Below, piece after piece: positions 32,282-59,944 of a stretch of 64,000 bases of DNA; position 1 is the stretch's first letter; each line of letters opens with the position of its first letter. The translations under genes and the position numbers were made by a program. Below the pieces are notes generated by a model. It was not told the DNA's origin. It saw nothing but the letters and a program-made list of their open reading frames with translations, and ran no database searches. This DNA is from Bacteroidia bacterium (GTDB taxonomy: Bacteria; Bacteroidota; Bacteroidia; NS11-12g; UBA9320): the NCBI GenBank assembly GCA_018402155.1, contig JAGYJG010000001.1, positions 2,128,501 to 2,192,500 on the forward strand. Direction: 5' to 3'.

Positions 32282-33628
32282 GTGATTAAGTTTTTAAAAA
32301 ATAACAAACTAAAGGGGTTCTTACCCCTTTTCTTTTTACTTGCTTTTGGTGCTTGTAAAAAAGAATCTTCGGACATAGGATATGCGCTCTTAAAAGATAA
32401 CGCCCTGGATGACGCTGAAAAAGTAACGTTTACACAAGCCATTTGCAGGTCAGTATTAGACGACTCTGTGCGCTCTGATATACTTTCCTCTGGTCTTTTT
32501 GGAATGATAAATGATCCTGTACTTGGGGGAAGTAAGGTAAGCCTTATAATACAACCGAGTGTTAGTGAAATATCCATAGATTCAAGCATTAGAAATTCGG
32601 ATTCTACTAAACTTATCTTAAAATATGATATTGCTGAAGAAATAGGAACTGAGCCCTACAGATTATTAATAGGTGACGCTAATGCCGAATTATCCTTTGA
32701 TATTTATAAAATGGGAGAAGAAATACCCGATTCTGCGCTGGGAACCTATAGACCTGTTTTAGGAGAAAAAATTGGCGAATATTCAGGAGGATTTGATTTT
32801 AGTGAAAAAATAGTGATTGCCGACGGAGATACGCAAACGGTAACTCCAGAAATTGTGCTTACGCTTGACAATCAATTGGGTATAGATATTCTTAAGCTTA
32901 CAAACTTAAATAATGAACAACTAAAAACAGTGCTTAAGGGTATAGTGCTAGTGCCTAGAGAAATATTATCTGGCGATGGTCTTATTTTTGGGTTTGAGAG
33001 TAGATTGTCAGCTTCTAGAGTTGTGGTATATTTCGGCAGTTCAGAGGTTTCTTTAAACTTGGGTTCAAGAGAATCTAAGAGTGTTTGTTATTTTGAAAAT
33101 ACCCCTAGCGCAGCACTTGCTTCACAACTATCAGGTACTGGCCATTATAATACAACCTACGTGCAAAGTTTGGGCGGAGCCAAGGTAAAAATAGAGCTGC
33201 CTGAGTTGAATGATTTTATTAAAACCAAAAAAGGAGAGCGAATAGTTATTAATGAAGCGCATATATCTTTTGTGCTGGAAGACGGATCTGTGGTGAATGA
33301 TAAATATAGACAACCTCCCAGACTATTACTATATGCCATAGATTCAGTAACGGATAAAACAGCAAATTTCGAAGATTTGGTAGACTTTAGTGAGGGAAAA
33401 ACACTAAACTATGGTGGCAGGTATACCAATGGTAGTTACGATTTTAGATTCAATAGATACTTGCAACGTTTGGTAGACGATTACCGGTTGCGAGGTGTAG
33501 ATAATTTCAAAGGCTTTTACCTAAGAGTGCCAAATGATTCGCCTGTTACACCACACAGAGCGGTGCTCAATACAGATGTGTCGCAACAGGCCTTGAAAAT
33601 TTCTGTACGGTATACAAAACTCAATTAG
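32282..33628 (+). CDS. DUF4270 family lipoprotein
   Basis: The 448-residue protein has a lipoprotein signal peptide (hydrophobic LPLFFLLAFG followed by Ala-Cys, lipid-modified Cys25) and the conserved early region ALLKDNALDDAEKVTFT of the Bacteroidota DUF4270 family. Most of the rest looks like beta-rich extracellular sequence. The start is GTG at 32282, just ten bases after the preceding stop, suggesting coupling. Function is unknown; a surface or periplasmic role is inferred from the signal. Confidence 0.8.
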   Translation: MIKFLKNNKLKGFLPLFFLLAFGACKKESSDIGYALLKDNALDDAEKVTFTQAICRSVLDDSVRSDILSSGLFGMINDPVLGGSKVSLIIQPSVSEISIDSSIRNSDSTKLILKYDIAEEIGTEPYRLLIGDANAELSFDIYKMGEEIPDSALGTYRPVLGEKIGEYSGGFDFSEKIVIADGDTQTVTPEIVLTLDNQLGIDILKLTNLNNEQLKTVLKGIVLVPREILSGDGLIFGFESRLSASRVVVYFGSSEVSLNLGSRESKSVCYFENTPSAALASQLSGTGHYNTTYVQSLGGAKVKIELPELNDFIKTKKGERIVINEAHISFVLEDGSVVNDKYRQPPRLLLYAIDSVTDKTANFEDLVDFSEGKTLNYGGRYTNGSYDFRFNRYLQRLVDDYRLRGVDNFKGFYLRVPNDSPVTPHRAVLNTDVSQQALKISVRYTKLN

Positions 33629-41511: not shown

Positions 41512-44391
41512 TTACTTTAGTTTTCGAGCAACCTCTACTTCCCTAAAGCCTTCTATTAGGTCTAGTTCTTCTAGGTCATTGTAGTTTCTTATCTGAATGC
41601 CGCATTCAAATCCTTTTCCTATTTCTTTTACATCGTCTTTAAAGCGTTTTAATGCTTCAATTTCTCCGGTGTATATTACTACGCCTTCGCGTATGACGCG
41701 TACTTTGTTGTCGCGGTACATTTTACCTTCAGTTTGCATACAGCCTGCTACGGTTCCTACTTTAGTTATTTTAAATACTTCACGCACTTCCGCGGTGCCG
41801 GTTATTTCCTCTTTCAGATCTGGTGCAAGCATTCCTTCCATTGCAGCTTTTATCTCCTCTATTGCTTGGTATATAATGCTGTATTGTTTTATTTCTACCC
41901 CCTCGTTTTCTGCTAATTTTTTGGCAGATGGCATAGGCCTCACCTGAAAACCAATGACAATAGCGTCTGATGCTTTCGCAAGCAACACATCGTTATCTGT
42001 AATTGGCCCTACAGATTTTTGTATTATTTTTACCTCTATTTCCTCAGTTGATAGTCTGAGCAGTGAGTCCGATAGGGCTTCACTACTACCATCTACATCT
42101 GCTTTTATGATAAGTTTCAATTCTTGGAAATTTCCTATCGCTAGACGTTTCCCTATAGTGTCTAGTGTGAGCATAGACGTTGTGCGTATGGTTTGCTCTC
42201 GTTGCAATTGCTCTCGCTTATTGGCTATGTCTTTTGCCTGAGATTCATCACTCAATACCTGAAAAGTTTCGCCGGCGGCTGGTGCAGCAGAAAAACCGAG
42301 AATAGATACTGGAGATCCTGGCCCAGCTGTTTTCATAACCTTACCACGTTCGTTAAACATTGCCTTCACTCTAGCATAGTGCTGACCAGCTATCAGTGCG
42401 TCACCTATTTTTAGTGTACCTTCACTCACTAGCATAGAGGCTACTACTCCTCTACCTTTTTCTATCTTAGCTTCAAGTACAGCACCTTTAGCGTTTTTAT
42501 TTGGGTTGGCTTTTAGCTCTAATAGTTCAGCTTCTAGGCTTACTTTTTCTAGTAGTTCTTCTATATTTATGCCGTTTTTTGCAGATATTTCTTGGCATTG
42601 GTATTTGCCGCCCCATTCTTCTACCAGTATGTTCATAGCAGACAGTGATTCTCTCACTCGGTCTGGGTTTGCCCCAGGCTTATCTATTTTATTAATGGCA
42701 AACACAATGGGTACATTAGCAGCTTGAGCATGGCTTATGGCCTCTTTGGTTTGTGGCATCACTATGTCGTCTGCTGCTATTACAATGATAGCAACATCAG
42801 TAACTTGGGCACCTCTGGCACGCATAGCCGTAAATGCTTCGTGACCCGGAGTATCTATGAAGGTCATTTTATTGCCATTGGGTAGTTGTACTTCATACGA
42901 GGCAACGTGCTGTGTTATACCACCAGCCTCACCCGCTATTACGTTTGCGCTTCTAATGTGGTCCAACAGAGATGTTTTACCATGGTCTACGTGACCCATG
43001 ACTGTAACTATAGGGTGTCGTGGAAGTAAATCAGATTCTTTATCAGCTTCTTGTTCTATTTCTATAGTCTCGTCTGCGTCTACAAAATTTACTTCGTATT
43101 CAAATTCCTCAGCTACTATTTGTATTGTTTCAGCGTCAAGTCGCTGATTTATAGAAACCATAAGACCAAGAGAGAAGCATGCACCAATGATTTCGTTTAC
43201 ATTTACGTCCATCATACTCGCAAGGTCGTTGGCAGTTACAAATTCAGTAACGTCGAGTACTTTGCTTTCTTCAATGTCCTGAAGTTGTTTCTCTTCCCAC
43301 TTTTTCTTGTGTTCTTGTCTTCTAAATTTTCTAGCTTTTTGGCGCACTTTTCCACCATGAGTTGGAGTTTGCTTGCCAGATGACATTCTAGAGAGTGTTT
43401 TCTTTATCTTGTCTTGTATTTCTTTTTGTGAAACTACCAGCTTTTCTTCTGGTTTGCCTCTTTCTGCCTGATTTCCAGGTCCGTTTTGGCGTTCTTTGGT
43501 TAGCTTTTCGGCGGTTACCTTTTCTCCCTGTATACGTTTACGTTTTCGCTTTGGTTCACTCTCTTTTTTTGTTCGCTTTATGGGTGGCTTTATTTCTATT
43601 TTCCCCAGTACCGTTGTTCCTTCTAGCTTGGTATATTCAGTGTCTACATTTTCGGTTATTTCCTCTGGTTTACCTGTATTATCATTTGTAGAGATTTTTT
43701 CTGCTGGCGCACTGGTTGTCTCATTTGCAGCCTGTTTATTTTCGTGCTTTTTAAAACTAGTAGGTTTGCCTATTTTTTTCCTCGGTGAAGGATTTTGCAA
43801 CGTTATTTTTCCCAACACCTTTAGTGTGCCTGTATCTTCATTGCTGTCTACTGGCTCTACTTTTAATGTTTGTGTTGTTTTATCTGGGTTTGTTGGCTCG
43901 GGAAGTATTGTATTTCCAACTAATTTTGTTTTTCCAGAATCATCAGATTCTGGGACTTCAGGCACGACTTTTTCCGTACTTATTGGCTTTGGAGCCACAT
44001 CGTTTTCTTCTTTTGACGTTTCTTGTGATATGATGGGATCCTTTACATCTACTTTCAAAGGCTTTGTACCTAGTGTAGTATCTTTTACAAAAATTGTAGA
44101 TTCTGATTTGAAATCAGGCTCACGTGGTTCTTGCTTTTTAGTTTCTGTAATCTCCTGTGTTTTAGCATCCTTACGGATGTTTAACTCCAATTGCTGAGAT
44201 TCTTCTTTCGCTTGTTTGTCTTTTTTGTAGAAATTCAGTAGCTCTTGATACATGGTATCATCAAGTTTGGCTGTAATTTTGGTTTCTACACTAAAACCTT
44301 TTTCGCTCAGATGTTCTACGATAGTTTTCCAACTTACGTTGAACTCCGTTGCAACCTTATTTATTCTGTATGTCTTGTTATTGTCAGCCAT
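41512..44391 (-). CDS. infB: Translation initiation factor IF-2
   Basis: The 959-residue GTPase places initiator tRNA on the ribosome. Its N-terminus has the IF2-N fold ([17 protein letters not shown]), followed by about 350 residues of charged, low-complexity linker with many Lys, Glu and Thr, and then the G domain from about residue 455. Motifs are G1 [10 protein letters not shown]3 DTPGHEAF and G4 [10 protein letters not shown]. The C-terminal domains that bind fMet-tRNA are complete (ending EVARKLK). It is last in the rimP-nusA-infB operon, 47 bases after nusA. Confidence 0.97.
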
Positions 44392-44438: not shown

Positions 44439-45677
44439 TTATTTATCGAATTCTGCCTGTAGTATTTTCTTTATTTCTTCTATTGTTTCTCGTTCTAATT
44501 CTGTGCGAGACACAAGCTCTTCATTATTCATATCGAGTACGTTCTTAGCAGTGTCCAAACCAATATTTTTCAACTCGTCTAGTATCCAAGTATCTATTTC
44601 ATCTGCAAATTCGTCAAGATCTACATCCACATTTTCTCCTTCATTTGTTTCGCGGTATACATCTATGTTATACCCTACTAGTTTTCCAGCTAATTTGATG
44701 TTGTGTCCGCCTTTACCTATAGCAAGTGACACTTGATCTGCAGGCAAAAACACATCAACCTTTCCCTCTGTTTCGTGTATATTTATGGATGAAACTTTGG
44801 CTGGGCTTAAACTTCGTTGTATTAGAAGTGGCATATTGGACGTGTAGTTGATTACATCAATATTTTCGTTTTTAAGCTCACGCACTATACCGTGTATTCT
44901 ACTTCCTTTCATACCTACGCAGGCTCCTACAGGATCTACACGGTCGTCATAACTTTCTACAGCTACTTTCGCTCGCTCCCCCGGTTCTCTCACTATTTTC
45001 TTTATCGTAATTAGGCCGTCCAATATCTCTGGCACCTCCATTTCAAAAAGTCGTTCTAAAAACTCAGGTGCTGTTCTCGAAAGTATAACTTTTGGATTTG
45101 AGTTATACATCTCTACGCGTAAAACGACAGCACGTACAGTGTCGCCTTTTTTGAAGAAATCGCGAGGTATCATTTCACGTTTTGGAAGTATAAGCTCATT
45201 CCCTTCATCATCAAGTATCATCATCTCTGTTTTCCAAATTTGATATACTTCTCCGGTTACGATTTCCCCTGAGCGATCTTTATATAATTTATAAAATTCG
45301 TCTTTTTCCAACTCTAGCACTTTGCTAAGCAAGGTTTGGCGTGCAGTAAGTATGGTTCGGCGTCCAAAAGAAGCTAGATCAATTTCTTCTATAGCCTCTT
45401 CACCTATTTCATAGTCTTCTTCTAGTTTGCGTGCTGCCTCTATGGTTATTTCTTTATTGGGATCTTCCACCTCTCCCATATCCACAATTTCTCTGTTTCG
45501 GTAGATTTCTAGATCACCATTATCTGTGTTTACTATCACGTCAAAATTTTCATCAGAACCGTATTTTCTTCTGATCATAGTGCGAAACACATCTTCTAGA
45601 ACCCGCATCATCGTGGCTCTGTCTATGTTTTTGAATTCCTTGAATTCAGAGAAAGATTCTACTAATTGTAAGCTCAT
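44439..45677 (-). CDS. nusA: Transcription termination/antitermination factor NusA
   Basis: The 412-residue protein has the N-terminal RNA polymerase-binding domain, an S1 domain (GEIVTGEVYQIWK) and two KH domains (VGACVGMKGSRIHGIVREL, and LAIGKGGHNIKLAG). It modulates pausing, termination and antitermination. The C-terminal acidic repeat region of E. coli NusA is reduced, as is common outside Gammaproteobacteria. Its ATG overlaps the rimP stop by three to four bases (ATGA). Confidence 0.96.
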   Translation of the reverse strand: MSLQLVESFSEFKEFKNIDRATMMRVLEDVFRTMIRRKYGSDENFDVIVNTDNGDLEIYRNREIVDMGEVEDPNKEITIEAARKLEEDYEIGEEAIEEIDLASFGRRTILTARQTLLSKVLELEKDEFYKLYKDRSGEIVTGEVYQIWKTEMMILDDEGNELILPKREMIPRDFFKKGDTVRAVVLRVEMYNSNPKVILSRTAPEFLERLFEMEVPEILDGLITIKKIVREPGERAKVAVESYDDRVDPVGACVGMKGSRIHGIVRELKNENIDVINYTSNMPLLIQRSLSPAKVSSINIHETEGKVDVFLPADQVSLAIGKGGHNIKLAGKLVGYNIDVYRETNEGENVDVDLDEFADEIDTWILDELKNIGLDTAKNVLDMNNEELVSRTELERETIEEIKKILQAEFDK

Positions 45678-46139
45678 TTCTTTTTTTGTTTAAAGGATAT
45701 TTGTACTGTACATGTCTTTATTTCGTCAAACGCTATGGTTTTCTTTTCATTTATCTTTTTAGAAATAGGGACTTCTATTTCTACACTGCTCTCATTTATA
45801 TGAGTCAATTCTCCCGTTATTATTTCTGCCTCCCCGAAAGCTATTTCTAGATCCCTGCCTATATGCTGTTCATACTGCCGTTTGTCTAGCAGTGGTTGAT
45901 CTACACCTGGCGATGAAATTTCATACCGGAGCGGAGTCGTCCTCTTCATATTCCTCGTCTAATATACGAGAAACTTTCCGACTCAACCTTGCACACGTTT
46001 GTATGCCTACCCCATTTTTCCCATCTATAAAAAAGCGCAAATCCGTACCAGCCTCGTTGCTGCGAGTATTCACTAAAAAACAATCCGTACTAGCCAGTTC
46101 ACTTTCTATAATTTCTATTATGCGATGTTTTATATCCAA
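45674..46139 (-). CDS. rimP: Ribosome maturation factor RimP, frameshifted
   Basis: The N-terminal half (DIKHRIIEIIESELASTDCF to SRKVSRILDEEYEEDD) and the C-terminal half (RYEISSPGVDQPL to the end) are in adjacent frames. They meet within 45921-45949, where one base too many around the CC of gctccgg (minus strand) disrupts the frame. Corrected, the protein has about 154 residues, the standard RimP size. RimP assists 30S subunit maturation. The start is most likely TTG at 46139, just after a hairpin; an upstream in-frame ATG at 46289 would add 50 unrelated residues across the promoter. It heads the rimP-nusA-infB operon. Confidence 0.85.
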
Positions 46140-46152
46140 GATTTTTGTTATT

Positions 46153-46176
46153 AAAAAAGGGGCGCCTGCCCCTTTT
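46153..46176 (-). terminator. Terminator-like hairpin in the rimP-nusA-infB leader
   Basis: A perfect 9-bp stem (AAAAGGGGC with GCCCCTTTT, loop AGGC on the minus strand) is followed by a run of T. It lies between the candidate promoter (46195-46202) and the rimP start (46139), so transcripts entering this operon must pass it. It is shaped like an intrinsic terminator or attenuator. No gene ends nearby on this strand to explain it otherwise. Confidence 0.7.
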
Positions 46177-46194
46177 AGTTTCTTAGTATGACTG

Positions 46195-46202
46195 CAAATG
46201 TA
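46195..46202 (-). promoter_or_regulatory. Candidate -7 box of the rimP-nusA-infB operon
   Basis: The minus strand reads TACATTTG followed by CAG, a full match to TAnnTTTG. Transcription would start near 46188, about a dozen bases before the terminator-like hairpin. A good -33 TTTG is not visible. Confidence 0.55.
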
Positions 46203-46600
46203 AATGTTTTGTTTATATCTTGCACTATATATGTAAGTTTTTCGTAGCTCTATGTAGTCACTTACGTTAACATTTTCATTATGGTCCAAATCATTTGTCG
46301 ATAGTTGAAATCGTTTTGTTCTTATAATGCTCTGTACAGTTTTAGTTTATTTGTCTCCGATATACTATTCAATTAATTGATAGTGTTGCATGTATGTGAA
46401 GTAGAAACTTAATGATATAAAAATGCTAACCATTTAAATTTCATTTTTTTGAGACCAACCGTAAAATAGTATTTTTTTGATCTCATATTATATGTTTTTT
46501 ATCCTGGATTAGCGGTAGTTGCGTCTCTTTGATGCTCAATTGTACCAATGTGTAAAAGCGGGTCTCTCATTTTAGATTTAAGTATTCGTTATTTTCGACA
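46203..46600. other. Non-coding gap between divergent rimP and T9SS cargo genes
   Basis: About 400 bases without a convincing gene. They are AT-rich and contain a perfect palindrome CAATTAATTG at 46370-46379 and T-runs near 46446-46481. Upstream regions of both flanking units fall here; nothing else can be assigned. Confidence 0.4.
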
Positions 46601-46608
46601 TATATTTG
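46601..46608 (+). promoter_or_regulatory. Candidate -7 box of the T9SS cargo gene
   Basis: TATATTTG matches TAnnTTTG and lies 22 bases before the ATG at 46631. No clear -33 element. Confidence 0.45.
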
Positions 46609-46630
46609 AATTCACTTTTAAAAAATCGTT

Positions 46631-47425
46631 ATGAAGAAAAAGTATCAAAAATTTGTAGTGCTTGGATTAGCAAGTTTGGGCATCTTACTCTTGGCCAATA
46701 GCGGAGGTAGCCCTGGTGGCCGCACTGGCTCTGCAACTGACCAAGGTAGAACGTGTGCTACCCAAGGTGGTTGTCATGCGGGCGGAGGTACTGTTTTGTC
46801 GCAAGAGATGATTTCAACCACCATTCCAGCTGAAGGGTATGTCCCAGGTATGCAGTATACTATTACTCTTAGCCCAGCCTTTGACGGAGCTGGCAGGTAT
46901 GGGTTCGAAATGATGGTAGAAGATGCATCTGGGAGTGCCAAAGGAACGTTTACAAATAATTCAGACGGAAATATTAAAGAGAATGGACTTCGGATAACAC
47001 ATAAATTTGCAAGTAGTACAGGTGGAGATACCAAAACGTGGAACTTAGATTGGACTGCTCCAAGTGCTGGCACTGGGGATTTAGTAATCTTTGCATCTGT
47101 ACTCGCCGCAAATGGCAATGGGGCTACAAGCGGTGATAGATTAATTCTGGATACACTTATTCTCACCGAGAATACAAAAGCGTCTGTTAATTATACGTTT
47201 GACCGCACTATAAATTTGTTCCCAAACCCTGTGCACAACATTTTGCACATAAGTGGCATAGAAACCACTAATAGTCTAGTAACGATTACAGACCTTAATG
47301 GAAAAACCGTTATTTCAGAACCATATACTAAGTCTGTAGACGTAAGCATACTTCCTGCTGGCACCTATGTACTTCTATTTGTGAATGATACTAAAACATG
47401 GAAGAAAAAGTTCATAAAACGGTAA
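46631..47425 (+). CDS. Secreted choice-of-anchor V-like protein with T9SS sorting domain
   Basis: The 264-residue protein has a signal peptide (KKKYQKFVVLGLASLGILLL), a middle beta-sandwich like the choice-of-anchor V/Reeler-type domains, and a C-terminal type IX secretion sorting domain (INLFPNPVHNILHISG ... GTYVLLFVNDTKTWKKKFIKR). After export through the outer membrane, the tail would be cleaved and the protein anchored or released. The N-terminal GGRTGSATDQGRTC motif is typical; here Cys42 and Cys48-His49 are spaced CX5CH rather than the usual CxxCH, so haem binding is doubtful. The gene is monocistronic. Confidence 0.83.
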   Translation: MKKKYQKFVVLGLASLGILLLANSGGSPGGRTGSATDQGRTCATQGGCHAGGGTVLSQEMISTTIPAEGYVPGMQYTITLSPAFDGAGRYGFEMMVEDASGSAKGTFTNNSDGNIKENGLRITHKFASSTGGDTKTWNLDWTAPSAGTGDLVIFASVLAANGNGATSGDRLILDTLILTENTKASVNYTFDRTINLFPNPVHNILHISGIETTNSLVTITDLNGKTVISEPYTKSVDVSILPAGTYVLLFVNDTKTWKKKFIKR

Positions 47426-47459
47426 ATGTAGTTTATGATTTATAACCTGTACCCTGAAT

Positions 47460-48386
47460 TCAAGTAAAATTTTGAGTCTCTTCGACCTCATCTGATTTAC
47501 CAAAGACATAAATTAGAGAGCTAGACCTGTCAATGTTTGTCAACGAGACGAGATAAGCCCAAAGTGCTTTTGTGAGTGTAATCGGTAAGACAGTGAATTT
47601 TTTCTTATAGCTGGCGCTCACCATACAATTAAAAAAAGGGTCTAACGGAAGTCTATGCTTTTGTATTAGTACAAATCCTCTTGCACTAGCAAATGCTTCA
47701 ATTGTTTTTGGTGTAAAGTGCCATAAATGCCGAGGTGTGTCATAGGCTGCCCAAAATTTACCATACATCTTAGCATCTATGCTATCACTATTGGGCAATG
47801 CGAGTATTAGTACTCCGTTTTTCTTTAGTGAGGTATGAAAAAGTTCAAAGTATTCATTGTAAGTATACACGTGCTCAAAAACGTGCCAAAGGGTAATAAG
47901 GTCAAAATCTGTATCTAATTTTTTTTCTAAAAACTCGGCTGGAGTATACGCAGCTAAGTCAAATTTTTTTTGGCAAAGTGAGCGTGCTTTTTCACTTATT
48001 TCTACACCCGCAGTGGCATAACCTTTACCCGCCATATGATGCATAAAATAACCGGAACCAGACCCTATATCCAAGAGTTTTTTTCCTACACCTAGTTTTT
48101 CAATTTTTTTGCTCTTGTAGCGCAGCATAATCTTCCGGGCAGTATGGTAAAGGCTGAATATTATTCCTTTCTTGGTGTCGCTATGCTCCACATATTCTTC
48201 ACTATTATAGTATGGACCTATGTCGTTTTCTAAAGGAGCATTATTCGTAAATTTAAAACCGCACGAAGCGCATTGTGATATCTCAAAAACCTCTCTGGAC
48301 ACTAACCAATCGGGAACGTCTTTGAAGGTAATAAAATCAGTGCAATGGCACACAGGGCAGTTTGATATAGAAAATGACGCAGACAA
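47460..48386 (-). CDS. Class I SAM-dependent methyltransferase with N-terminal zinc ribbon
   Basis: The 308-residue protein has an N-terminal zinc ribbon (Cys10 and Cys13 in CPVC, and CASC near residue 39) and a methyltransferase domain with SAM motif LLDIGSGSGYF and post-motif TLWHVFEHV. Proteins of this arrangement commonly act on sugars or polysaccharide intermediates, but the substrate cannot be inferred here. It faces DUF2723 divergently, with 192 bases between them. Confidence 0.85.
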   Translation of the reverse strand: MSASFSISNCPVCHCTDFITFKDVPDWLVSREVFEISQCASCGFKFTNNAPLENDIGPYYNSEEYVEHSDTKKGIIFSLYHTARKIMLRYKSKKIEKLGVGKKLLDIGSGSGYFMHHMAGKGYATAGVEISEKARSLCQKKFDLAAYTPAEFLEKKLDTDFDLITLWHVFEHVYTYNEYFELFHTSLKKNGVLILALPNSDSIDAKMYGKFWAAYDTPRHLWHFTPKTIEAFASARGFVLIQKHRLPLDPFFNCMVSASYKKKFTVLPITLTKALWAYLVSLTNIDRSSSLIYVFGKSDEVEETQNFT

Positions 48387-48578
48387 TTTTTTATAACTTT
48401 CGTGATTGCAAATAACAATTTAAATGAACTCAGGAACAAATTGGAGACATATAAATTTTAGGACAAGCCAACGCATCATCCAGTTTTTTCGTCTTAAGTT
48501 TTCACGTATTTGTAGCGTATATAAACTAAATATTTATTTTCGCCGATACTATTGAAATAAAGATAGAACATTAATCAA

Positions 48579-51500
48579 ATGAATAATTTTAAAAAAGTAA
48601 ACACCATTTTTGGCTGGGGAGCGTTTCTGATTGCCCTTGTTGTCTACATACTCACTCTAGAGCAGTCCGTCAGTTTATGGGACTGTGGAGAGTTTATATC
48701 TGCCTCATATAGACTGCAAGTAGTTCATCCTCCTGGCGCGCCATTGTTCCTTATGCTAGGTAGATTGTTTACTCTATTTGCTACACCAGGTACAGCAGAG
48801 GTAGCCATAGCGGTCAATATGTTTAGTGCGGTCGCTAGTGCAGCGACTGTTATGTTTACTTTTTGGATTACCACGCATTTTGCAAAAAAAATACTAAGAG
48901 TAGATCTCAATTCAACTAAAGTAAGCTTAGGAGATACTATCGCTATTTTGGGCTCTGGTATGGTAGCGGCCTTATCAGTTACGTTTATGGATACCTTTTG
49001 GTTTAGTGCAGTAGAGGCCGAGGTATATGCCGGCTCTTCTTGCTTCATGGCATTAGCTTTTTGGGCTATTCTGAAATGGGAAAAAGTAAAGGATGAACCT
49101 CGTTCTGATAGATGGATTGTTTTCATTGCATATATCATTGGATTAGGTATTGGGCTTCACTTGTTGAATATATTAGTAGTTCCTGCTATATTTCTATACT
49201 ATTTTGTGAATAAATATGGCGCATCAACAGCCAATGTGTTGAAAGCTGCAGTCATTGGATTCGGCTCTATTGCTTTGCTTCAATGGGGTATAATACCCAA
49301 AACACCAGAAGTGGCGGCGTGGTTTGACCTGATTTTTGTTAATAGTTTTGGTCTACCTTTCAACTCCGGTGTGTTATTTTTTATGGTGGTTATATTGGTT
49401 GCTATAATTTTTGGATTGCGCTACACCGCAAAACACAATAAGCCTATCGCTAATTTGGTCATATTATGCTACGCATTTATTATGATAGGTTTTAGCTCGT
49501 ATTCTATGGTTGTTATCCGCTCTATTGCTGAGCCAGCTATAGATATGAATGACCCACAAGATGCACAAAGTCTACTAAGCTATATAAACCGAGAGCAATA
49601 TGGATCTAGGCCATTGGTATATGGCCCACACTGGAATGCGCGACTCACTGCTATAGACGAAGGTAAAGTGAACTACAGAAGAGGTGACGGAGAATACGAG
49701 GAAATTGGCACAAAGCAAGAACCCGTTTATGATGATCGATATTCTACTTTCATACCTCGTATGGGAGATATGTCAGAAAAATCTAAATACTACCCTATAT
49801 GGTGCGGTATGGAAGATATGTTTATGCGGGTAAACCAACTGGAACAACAGGTGCAAGCAGACCCTACTAATAAAGATTTGAGGAGACAACTGGAAGCTGC
49901 AGAGCTCACCAAACCAACCACCAGCAATAACTTGGAGTTTATGTTTAAATATCAAATGGGCTGGATGTACTGGAGATATTTTATGTGGAATTTCGTAGGG
50001 AGACAAAATGATGTCCAAAATGTGACCGGCAACAGCCAAGAAGGAAACTGGATTTCAGGAATAAAAGCTTTTGACGAATGGAGACTAAATGCGCCAATGG
50101 AAGTACCCGTAGATATGGAATACAATAAGGCCAGAAATACGTACTATTTTTTACCTTTACTATTAGGATTTTTAGGTATATGGATTATGTATAAACGAAG
50201 CAAAATGGATTTTTATACTGTTTTGGTGATGTTTTTATTTACCGGTTTGCTTGTAGTCATATACCTCAATCAGCCTCCTATGGAACCCAGAGAGCGCGAT
50301 TATACGTTTGCCGGATCTTTTCAAACGTTCTGTATCTGGATAGGTCTTAGCGTATTGTTTTTTGTAGATGCCTTAAAAAAATTCGCCAATAAAACAGTAA
50401 TTGCCTCGGGTGCTACCTTAGTAGCTTTGTTCGCTGCTCCAGTGCTTATGGGGGCTCAGAACTGGGACGACCACGATAGGTCTGACCGGTATTTGGCTAT
50501 TTCATTTGCCAAAAACTACCTCAGTAGCTGTGAGAAAAATGCCATACTTTTTACCAATGGAGATAATGATACCTATCCGCTTTGGTATGCCCAAAATGTG
50601 GAAGGATATCGCACAGATGTGCGGATTATCAACTTGAGTCTTTTGCCTACGGAGTGGTATAGCAGTGCATTACGTCGCAAGGTTTTTGAGTCCGAAGCTT
50701 TGCCGCTTAGTATCCCTGCTGAAGAAATGGTGGCAGGAAAACGAGATTATGTACGATTTTATGAAAACAAATCCTTTCCTCAAAATCAGTTTTATCCGCT
50801 AGATCAAGTACTTTCTTACGCTACTTCTAACGATAAGTCCAAAATGCAAAGAACAAATAGTGGAGATCTTATAAATGTGTATCCTGTAAAAAACTTCAGT
50901 GTGGATGTAGATAAGAAGGCCATACTAGCTACAGGCTATATCCCAGCTAAAGACACTGCCAAAATAGTAGACAAACTCTATTGGAATATTGGCAGAGACG
51001 GACTAAGTAAAGGAGACCTTGTAGTTTTAGATGTGATAGCTACCAATGCAAAAACTGGTTGGAAAAGACCTATATACTGGACCACTACTACCGGTTCTTC
51101 CGTGTATCTGAATCTAGATAAGTACCTTCGGCACAATGGACTTACATACCAACTTTTGCCCGTTGAAGCCAATAGAAGTACTCGGGGGATGGATGATATG
51201 GATCTCTTGTACAAACGATTGATGGAAGATTATGTGTGGGGCAATATGGATAAAGGTGAAATGTTTTTGGACGAAAAAGCCAAACTAGTGCCGGAAAACC
51301 TTCGTACGCTTTTTATACAAGTAGCAGACTATCATTCGCGCATTGAAGACATGGAAAAAGCAACAGCTGTACTAGACCAATGTTATAAGGTGATGCCCGA
51401 AAGTATATTACCCATGCGTTTAAACTTAAAAGCATTAAGTGCAGATATTTACTACCGAGCAGGGCAAGTAGAAAAGGCAGATTCGTTTACCACTGATATT

Positions 51501-58789: not shown

Positions 58790-59944
58790 CTAGTATTCTA
58801 TGCCAGCTATAGACAGCCTTTTGGTCGCACTACTTTCGCATCTGCCTATAACCTGGGCTTGTACATCAAAACTAGCGGCTGTATCTATCATTTTCTGTGC
58901 TATGTCTTTGTCGCAATATATTTCTAATCGATGACCCATATTGAATACTTCAAACATTTCTTTCATGCTTGTGCTAGTGGTTTTCTGTATAGCGTCAAAA
59001 AGTGGTGGTATGGGTAGCAAACTGTCTTTTATAATGTGTAGTGGTTTATCCAAAAATTTCATAACTTTGGTTTGTGCTCCTCCTGTGCAGTGAATAATAC
59101 CGTGTATTCCTTGCTTTAAAGTAGCGTCAGCTAAAATCTTGTTTAATATGGGTGCATATGTGCGCGTAGGCGAAAGGAGCGCTTTGCCTATGTCTACTGA
59201 AGTGTCTGGTAAAGCATCCGTTAAAGAAAACTGACCACTATATATATACTCCTCATTGGTGTTGCTGTCAAATGATTCGGGGTACTTAGAGAAATAAGTA
59301 TGATGAAGCAGGTCGTGTCTTCCGCTGGTGAGCCCATTAGAACCTATTCCTGCATTGTAAGTCTGCTCATAGCTAGCTTTACCGTACGATGAAAAACCAA
59401 CAATAACATCGGTAGGCTGGATGTCTACTTCTAGAATTTCTTTTCTTTTTGGCCTGCATGCCACAGTGCTATCTACTATTATAGTTTTTACGAGATCTCC
59501 TACGTCTGCAGTTTCTCCACCAGTGAATTTTATTTGAGTGCCAAAAGACTGCATGGTTTCTATGCACTCTTCAAAGCCATCTATTAGTTCTTTGATAACC
59601 TCTCCTGGTATGAGGTGTTTATTTCTACCAATAGTATTAGAAAGCAGAAAAGGACCAACGGCACCTGTGCAAATAATGTCATCCAAATTCATAACAATTG
59701 CGTCTTGGGCTATTCCTCTCCATACGCTTATGTCACCCGTTTCTTTCCAGTAAAGATAGGCTAGTGATGATTTGGTACCTGCCCCATCGGCGTGTACTAT
59801 GTTGCAGTAATCTTGGTCTCCACCAATATAGTCTTCTACAATTTTGCAAAATGCATTTGGAAAGATGCCCTTATCTATATTGGTTATAGCTTTATGTACA
59901 TCTTCTTTTTGAGAGGATACTCCTCTCTTTTCATATCTACTCAC
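58790..59944 (-). CDS. purM: Phosphoribosylformylglycinamidine cyclo-ligase (AIR synthetase)
   Basis: The 384-residue enzyme closes the imidazole ring in purine synthesis. It shows the MSRYEKRGVSSQKEDVHKAI start, DGAGTKSSLAY, FTGGETADVGD and HCTGGAQTKV motifs. The C-terminal part is longer than the E. coli enzyme (345 residues), as in other Bacteroidota. It lies 10 bases after the OmpA/PD40 gene, so they may be cotranscribed. Confidence 0.93.
   Translation of the reverse strand: MSRYEKRGVSSQKEDVHKAITNIDKGIFPNAFCKIVEDYIGGDQDYCNIVHADGAGTKSSLAYLYWKETGDISVWRGIAQDAIVMNLDDIICTGAVGPFLLSNTIGRNKHLIPGEVIKELIDGFEECIETMQSFGTQIKFTGGETADVGDLVKTIIVDSTVACRPKRKEILEVDIQPTDVIVGFSSYGKASYEQTYNAGIGSNGLTSGRHDLLHHTYFSKYPESFDSNTNEEYIYSGQFSLTDALPDTSVDIGKALLSPTRTYAPILNKILADATLKQGIHGIIHCTGGAQTKVMKFLDKPLHIIKDSLLPIPPLFDAIQKTTSTSMKEMFEVFNMGHRLEIYCDKDIAQKMIDTAASFDVQAQVIGRCESSATKRLSIAGIEY

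Follow-up and report, generated by a model that had tools for sequence, protein, structure and literature searches.

The closest described relative of the element reported here is the rimP-leader, a published attenuator with a GGGc...gCCC stem and a U-run, for which NusA is the favoured effector (Naville and Gautheret 2010, PMC2965389). In that paper, the distance from the element to the gene start is 4 to 130 nt, and there is neither a larger conserved element nor a visible antiterminator. Bacteroidota, searched for as "Bacteroid" and "Flavobac", are not named in its main text. In Bacillus subtilis, the nusA (ylxS) operon likewise has a leader intrinsic terminator as its feedback point and, according to the part of a 2025 review cited here, NusA-stimulated leader termination autoregulates NusA (PMC12288461).

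We examined the rimP-nusA-infB operon in a stretch of 64,000 nt (the window, meaning the whole stretch of DNA that was analysed) from a 2.49-Mb genome with Bacteroidota relatives, in which the operon lies on the minus strand. As in the rimP-leader, a short hairpin with a G-rich 5' arm and a C-rich 3' arm, followed by a U-run, is found near the gene and ahead of rimP-nusA-infB. In the window these features take the form of the operon position, a GGGc...gCCC stem, a U-stretch of six T and a distance of 13 nt to the start. Unlike the published element, the hairpin described here belongs to Bacteroidota, its commonest core in Bacteroidia is GGGGAC/GUCCCC, a -7 box is found a short way upstream, and the U-tract is missing in one genus. 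For B. subtilis, PMC2965389 gives a leader length of 180 nt, whereas the window hairpin is situated within about 50 nt of the box. The window hairpin is the Bacteroidota form of the rimP-leader, and extends a known regulator rather than adding a new one.

Escherichia coli K-12 provides a further comparison. Its rimP leader, ACTGGGCTTTAGGCCCTTTTTTTATG, was read by eye, as it is not called by the hairpin rule used below, and contains GGGCTTTAGGCCC followed by TTTTTTT just ahead of rimP, which is the same G-arm/C-arm hairpin and T run. A preliminary description of the window had proposed that the signal differs from that of E. coli, and this claim does not hold. What does differ is the upstream context, since metY and another hairpin lie upstream in E. 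coli, whereas in the window a promoter box belonging to the operon immediately precedes the hairpin. The mechanism put forward in the same description, autoregulation by NusA, is plausible on this analysis, but already known.

The Rfam family RF01770 (rimP) concerns the same gene and the same proposed role through a model of 102 positions. It gave no match in the window at the gathering level and none up to an E value of 10. None of 20 relatives had a match above the cut-off, and among 14 control genomes 12 had some match and only one was above it. The results in the relatives indicate that the Bacteroidota form is not covered by the Rfam model. Other Rfam RNAs were rejected, as weak matches to sraA and STnc40 fall well short of the respective cut-offs and can be put down to terminator shape. 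No description of a Bacteroidota rimP-leader was found in titles and abstract openings of the open-licence PMC literature, and as far as these searches show, two things are new, namely how widely the motif occurs in Bacteroidia and the existence of a genus lacking the U-tract.

Anatomy of the rimP leader

Read from the minus strand, the leader has the order given in the preliminary description, namely a -7 box, a hairpin and the rimP start (Table 1). The box has the form TAnnTTTG, which we take to be the Bacteroidota -7 box, and is separated from the first G of the hairpin by 22 nt, compared with a median of 25 nt in the 177 leaders considered below. The hairpin is composed of the 5' arm AAAAGGGGC (46176-46168), the loop AGGC (46167-46164) and the 3' arm GCCCCTTTT (46163-46155), and the perfect 9-bp stem claimed earlier is confirmed, with all nine pairs formed (five G-C and four A-U). 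Two T follow the 3' arm, to 46153, and then come AATAACAAAAATC and the rimP TTG at 46139. "T-runs" had been reported in the plural; a T tract is indeed present, but as a single run (46158-46153) in which four of the six T are paired. The form of an intrinsic terminator, a hairpin with a T run pointing at rimP, is borne out.

Table 1. Features of the rimP operon and its leader in the window
Feature	Coordinates	Strand	Basis
-7 box TACATTTG, form TAnnTTTG, rimP operon promoter	46195..46202	-	sequence
Leader hairpin (rimP-leader), 9 bp, AAAAGGGGC-AGGC-GCCCCTTTT	46155..46176	-	sequence, fold, model R1, covariation
T run (U-tract), six T, four also paired with A tract	46153..46158	-	sequence
rimP 5' part, TTG start, stop included, RimP_N	45921..46139	-	Pfam PF02576; start position kept in genus
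rimP 3' part, other frame, C-terminal SH3 domain	45674..45949	-	Pfam PF17384, 26.4 bits vs cut-off 26.3
nusA, proposed source of the feedback protein	44439..45677	-	Pfam NusA_N, KH_5 and KH_2 above cut-off; S1 just below
infB (IF2)	41512..44391	-	Pfam IF-2, GTP_EFTU, IF2_N

The predicted fold of the 91-nt window leader has an energy of -16.8 kcal/mol (z -2.75; 2 of 200 shuffles were as good) and contains no helices competing with the stem. An additional 6-pair helix in the same predicted fold (46181-46186 with 46136-46141, minus strand) encloses the hairpin and includes the TTG start. A repeat search listed no repeats, which is weak evidence given that its minimum length of 12 misses the 9-bp stem too. 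A terminator consensus scan of 45000-48600 returned two sites against 2.2 in shuffles, and listed the same palindrome on the plus strand only; on the minus strand it was missed because the A-U pairs were counted as stem, leaving too few T. The single-sequence scan therefore shows no excess over chance, and it is the comparison of genomes that places the hairpin beyond chance.

The rimP gene of the window is in two frames, the N-terminal part stopping at 45921 and the C-terminal part running from 45949 (minus strand), with one base more than in relatives by hand comparison. These two parts are the sole rimP matches in the genome of the window, and the split may be an assembly error or a real lesion. 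The TTG start was chosen by script in the 15 loci of the genus, where no ATG yielded 125-176 codons, and was set by hand for the window's own rimP; rimP thus appears to begin with TTG (46139, minus strand, in the window), with ATC or ATT just before it. On the 5' side of the hairpin the neighbouring gene, at 46631-47425 on the plus strand, is divergent and encodes a Reeler domain and a secretion-system C-terminal sorting domain.

Conservation of the hairpin ahead of rimP

With the window nusA as query, matches were obtained in 54 of 58 near genomes and in all 148 class genomes (148/148), and the best 80 loci, Pedobacter, Sphingobacterium and Mucilaginibacter among them, were taken from a genome collection. 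The hairpin rule, applied ahead of rimP, required a stem of at least 6 pairs whose 5' arm contains GGG and whose 3' arm contains CCC. Without any condition on T, a match was obtained at 121 of the 136 loci taken from the order and class of the window, in three of which (L035, L093 and L127) it is not the leader stem, and at 74 of 79 named loci. When at least 5 T of 10 were also required, 74/79 named loci matched ahead of rimP. Control stretches gave one match in 79 just ahead of nusA, none in 79 within the nusA gene and one in 76 around the junction of nusA with infB, and shuffles that preserve dinucleotides gave 11 in 790. Every locus of the window's genus has the hairpin (15/15, its own included; 19 genomes were searched and four gave no locus). 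A chance hairpin is rejected by the leader fold against shuffles and by the named-loci counts against controls. The conservation check suggested in the preliminary description thus came out in favour of the hairpin, and its stem covaries, as described below.

These counts have the following scope. The 136 loci include one genome twice (L042, L064), and the named loci overlap them in part (e.g. L155, L162), the L155 leader being that of a model member, so that the two sets are not wholly independent; L160, with 23 nt upstream, is excluded from the named-loci counts. At L035 the rule chose another terminator farther upstream while the true stem is visible in the sequence, and the matches at L093 and L127 looked spurious. 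These three loci, together with L082, where a leader-like hairpin has a long lower arm, were dropped from the set of 177 non-redundant leaders.

Fifteen of the 136 loci had no match. Six of them (L066, L073, L087, L106, L119, L131) lack, by the frame rule used, a usable rimP frame immediately ahead of nusA, and in L048 and L049 the leader may fall beyond the scanned range. L098 and L100 have hairpins with G-U or mismatched pairs, L069 has another hairpin, and L091 has a stem AAGGC/GCCTT with a T run and so no GGG; at L104, L111 and L121 no leader hairpin was recognised in the stretch ahead of rimP. Among the five matchless named loci, L185, L191 and L219 have variant or imperfect hairpins, the others being L200 and L218, and the covariance model R1 described below finds L185 and L219 despite the rule having missed them.

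Outside the class, other classes of the phylum supplied 17 loci. Nine of these have a rule match with at least 7 T of 10, mostly with a different stem sequence, and a terminator-like hairpin ahead of rimP was seen by eye at six more (L242, L245, L246, L251, L253, L256). At L245 and L246, from another class, the leader hairpin is inverted by eye, with a C-rich 5' arm, a G-rich 3' arm and a T run.

Covariation and sequence motifs

Model R1 was built on an alignment of 25 equal-length leaders, as alignment of 72 of the 106 distinct leaders misaligned the arms by placing gaps 5' of the stem. In the 25-leader alignment, two-sided changes are seen in 6 of 10 pairs, with 22 cells against 5.3 in shuffled alignments. 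The covariation score is 0.333 compared with 0.145 when shuffled, and the true register beats every slid one. The 88 model matches (86 distinct), of which 18 are antisense readings of the same palindromes, likewise show 6 of 10 pairs changing on both sides (32 cells vs 5.7). Percent paired is biased upward in alignments A3 and A4, where stems were chosen by a pairing rule, and A5 is model-fitted.

The best R1 match in the window is at 46176-46147, with 26.2 bits. With E values of 0.05 or less, the leader is recovered by the model in 70 of 78 loci (the locus of the window plus 77 named loci, the 80 without L149, L159 and L160), and otherwise, in 322 kb, only antisense readings of the palindromes are found. 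Genome-wide, R1 is not specific. At most 150 first-look candidates per genome were scored, out of 910 in the genome of the window, and there the window leader is third among the matches listed (30.6 and 27.1 vs 26.2 bits). The 14 other matches listed, which occupy 11 places, each have an open frame ending no more than about 130 nt away, two of them being reported on the opposite strand, and they look like ordinary terminators. R1 also matches two T-tailed hairpins at 32310-32339 (+) and 59909-59937 (+), which are probably ordinary terminators. In one relative, a second nusA (G006:C6:29872-31113), 59% identical to the query, has a leader-model match about 490 nt upstream; the contig carrying it may be contamination.

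A strict motif, GGGGAC-N3-7-GTCCCCTCTTT, occurs at 42 places in 35 of the 148 Bacteroidia genomes. In all 42 cases (8 as antisense readings) nusA follows at a distance of 486-530 nt; the backward control gave 0. The motif is missing in 113/148 class genomes, including that of the window, whose leader (GGGGC...GCCCC) does not match it. Within the window's genus, the GGGGAC/GUCCCC core has given way to GGGGC or GGGGU, indicating that a strict recognition sequence is not kept there.

Placement and orientation of the hairpin

Promoter boxes and T tracts were counted in the 177 leaders. In 158 leaders an exact TAnnTTTG precedes the hairpin by at most 66 nt, compared with 7 leaders in which it falls in the next 66 nt upstream and 1 in which it falls in the 66 nt downstream. 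The hairpin is therefore transcribed and lies near the transcript 5' end, and the short gap between box and hairpin leaves little room for an upstream antiterminator. A promoter 3' of the hairpin, which the preliminary description had named as an outcome that would speak against its proposal, is rejected at 1/177. At least 6 T of 8 follow the C run in 158/177 leaders, whereas at least 6 A of 8 precede the G run in 22/177. Of the two tracts it is the T tract that is conserved, which orients the signal towards rimP. Weak T tails are found in L079, L081 and L084. A read-through terminator of the upstream gene was rejected on the basis of the divergent neighbour and of the promoter and T-tract counts.

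A genus without the U-tract

Genus g14, in the order of the window, comprises 17 genomes and 16 usable leaders (L270, with 45 nt upstream, was left out). In these leaders (L028 965-1000, L264-L279) the promoter box and a covarying stem are kept, and the U-tract is absent in 16/16 usable leaders. Compensatory stem changes are seen (GAGGGGC/GCCCCTC vs AAGGGCC/GGCCCTT), and the stem is followed by AATTGTT or an ACTTGTT-like sequence. The four g14 leaders scored have a U-tract score of 0.99-1.26, compared with a median of 4.4 and a lowest value of 0.56 over the 177 leaders, on a scale that is rough because long A-U arms shift the start of the tail. Three of 10 pairs change on both sides among 11 distinct sequences, reflecting few events, and two measures of covariation were reached by 32/500 and 172/500 shuffles. 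The lack of a U-tract implies that termination is not the whole story in g14.

In family f2, the 12-nt loop AAGCCAAAAGCA is identical in 9 of the 12 rule-found leaders outside g13 and g14 (L038-L046, with differing flanks; the count omits L064, a repeat of the L042 genome). The g14 leaders, the f2 loop and the stems of other classes fit, without proving, a role in recognition beside termination.

Proposed mechanism and alternatives

The hairpin is in a transcribed leader, has the form of a terminator directed at rimP and is conserved with covariation, and for these reasons attenuation is the best reading. On the sequence comparisons above, we consider it probable that a promoter-proximal intrinsic terminator acts as an attenuator, with termination raised by NusA limiting NusA synthesis. 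RNA polymerase would start just downstream of the TAnnTTTG box, near 46190, and transcribe roughly 35-40 nt, after which the hairpin of G-arm and C-arm would form behind it. To judge from its form, the U-tract would then release a fraction of polymerases in vivo ahead of rimP, while the remaining polymerases would read through to give the rimP-nusA-infB mRNA. By analogy with the published rimP-leader and with B. subtilis, NusA made from the operon would most likely raise the terminated fraction and so limit its own synthesis; in other systems NusA promotes termination at hairpins of this kind (PMC12288461).

Alternatively, the hairpin could be a site of protein binding or pausing, at which NusA, RimP or another RNA-binding protein holds on to the GGGGAC stem and either slows polymerase or prevents rimP translation. 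The strict stem motif, confined to the leader in those 35/148 genomes, shows more constraint than pairing requires, g14 has kept its stem through compensatory changes with no U-tract, and the loop shared by nine of 12 f2 leaders points the same way; however, the g14 covariation comes from few events, and pausing or binding alone would not need the directional T tract present in 158/177 leaders, and we regard this explanation as unlikely. A passive 5' stabiliser of the operon mRNA, with no regulation, is less likely still: it would account for a hairpin near the transcript 5' end (22 nt from the box in the window) and for the stem that persists in g14 without the U-tract, but would need neither a T tract nor a motif restricted to the operon. 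An ordinary terminator acting against transcripts from upstream or from the opposite strand is very improbable even though the other R1 matches listed in the window's genome look like ordinary terminators and the window palindrome also has an A tract and is listed by the scanner on the plus strand, since the operon's promoter box is 5' of the hairpin, the next gene 5' runs the opposite way, and the A tract is far rarer than the T tract (22/177 vs 158/177).

Beyond the attenuator, we tentatively raise a broader possibility, that the Bacteroidia stem is a sequence-specific site, probably for NusA, in the first 50 nt of the transcript, and that in g14 it has been uncoupled from termination and kept for binding, pausing or translation control. 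If this were true, g14 would be a natural test of the role of the hairpin apart from termination.

Control of transcription in Bacteroidia is less studied than in E. coli or B. subtilis. Because NusA governs pausing and termination across the genome, it matters how its level is kept constant. The same control point is found ahead of rimP in many Bacteroidia families, and the genus without a U-tract could separate the role of the hairpin as a terminator from any role in recognition.
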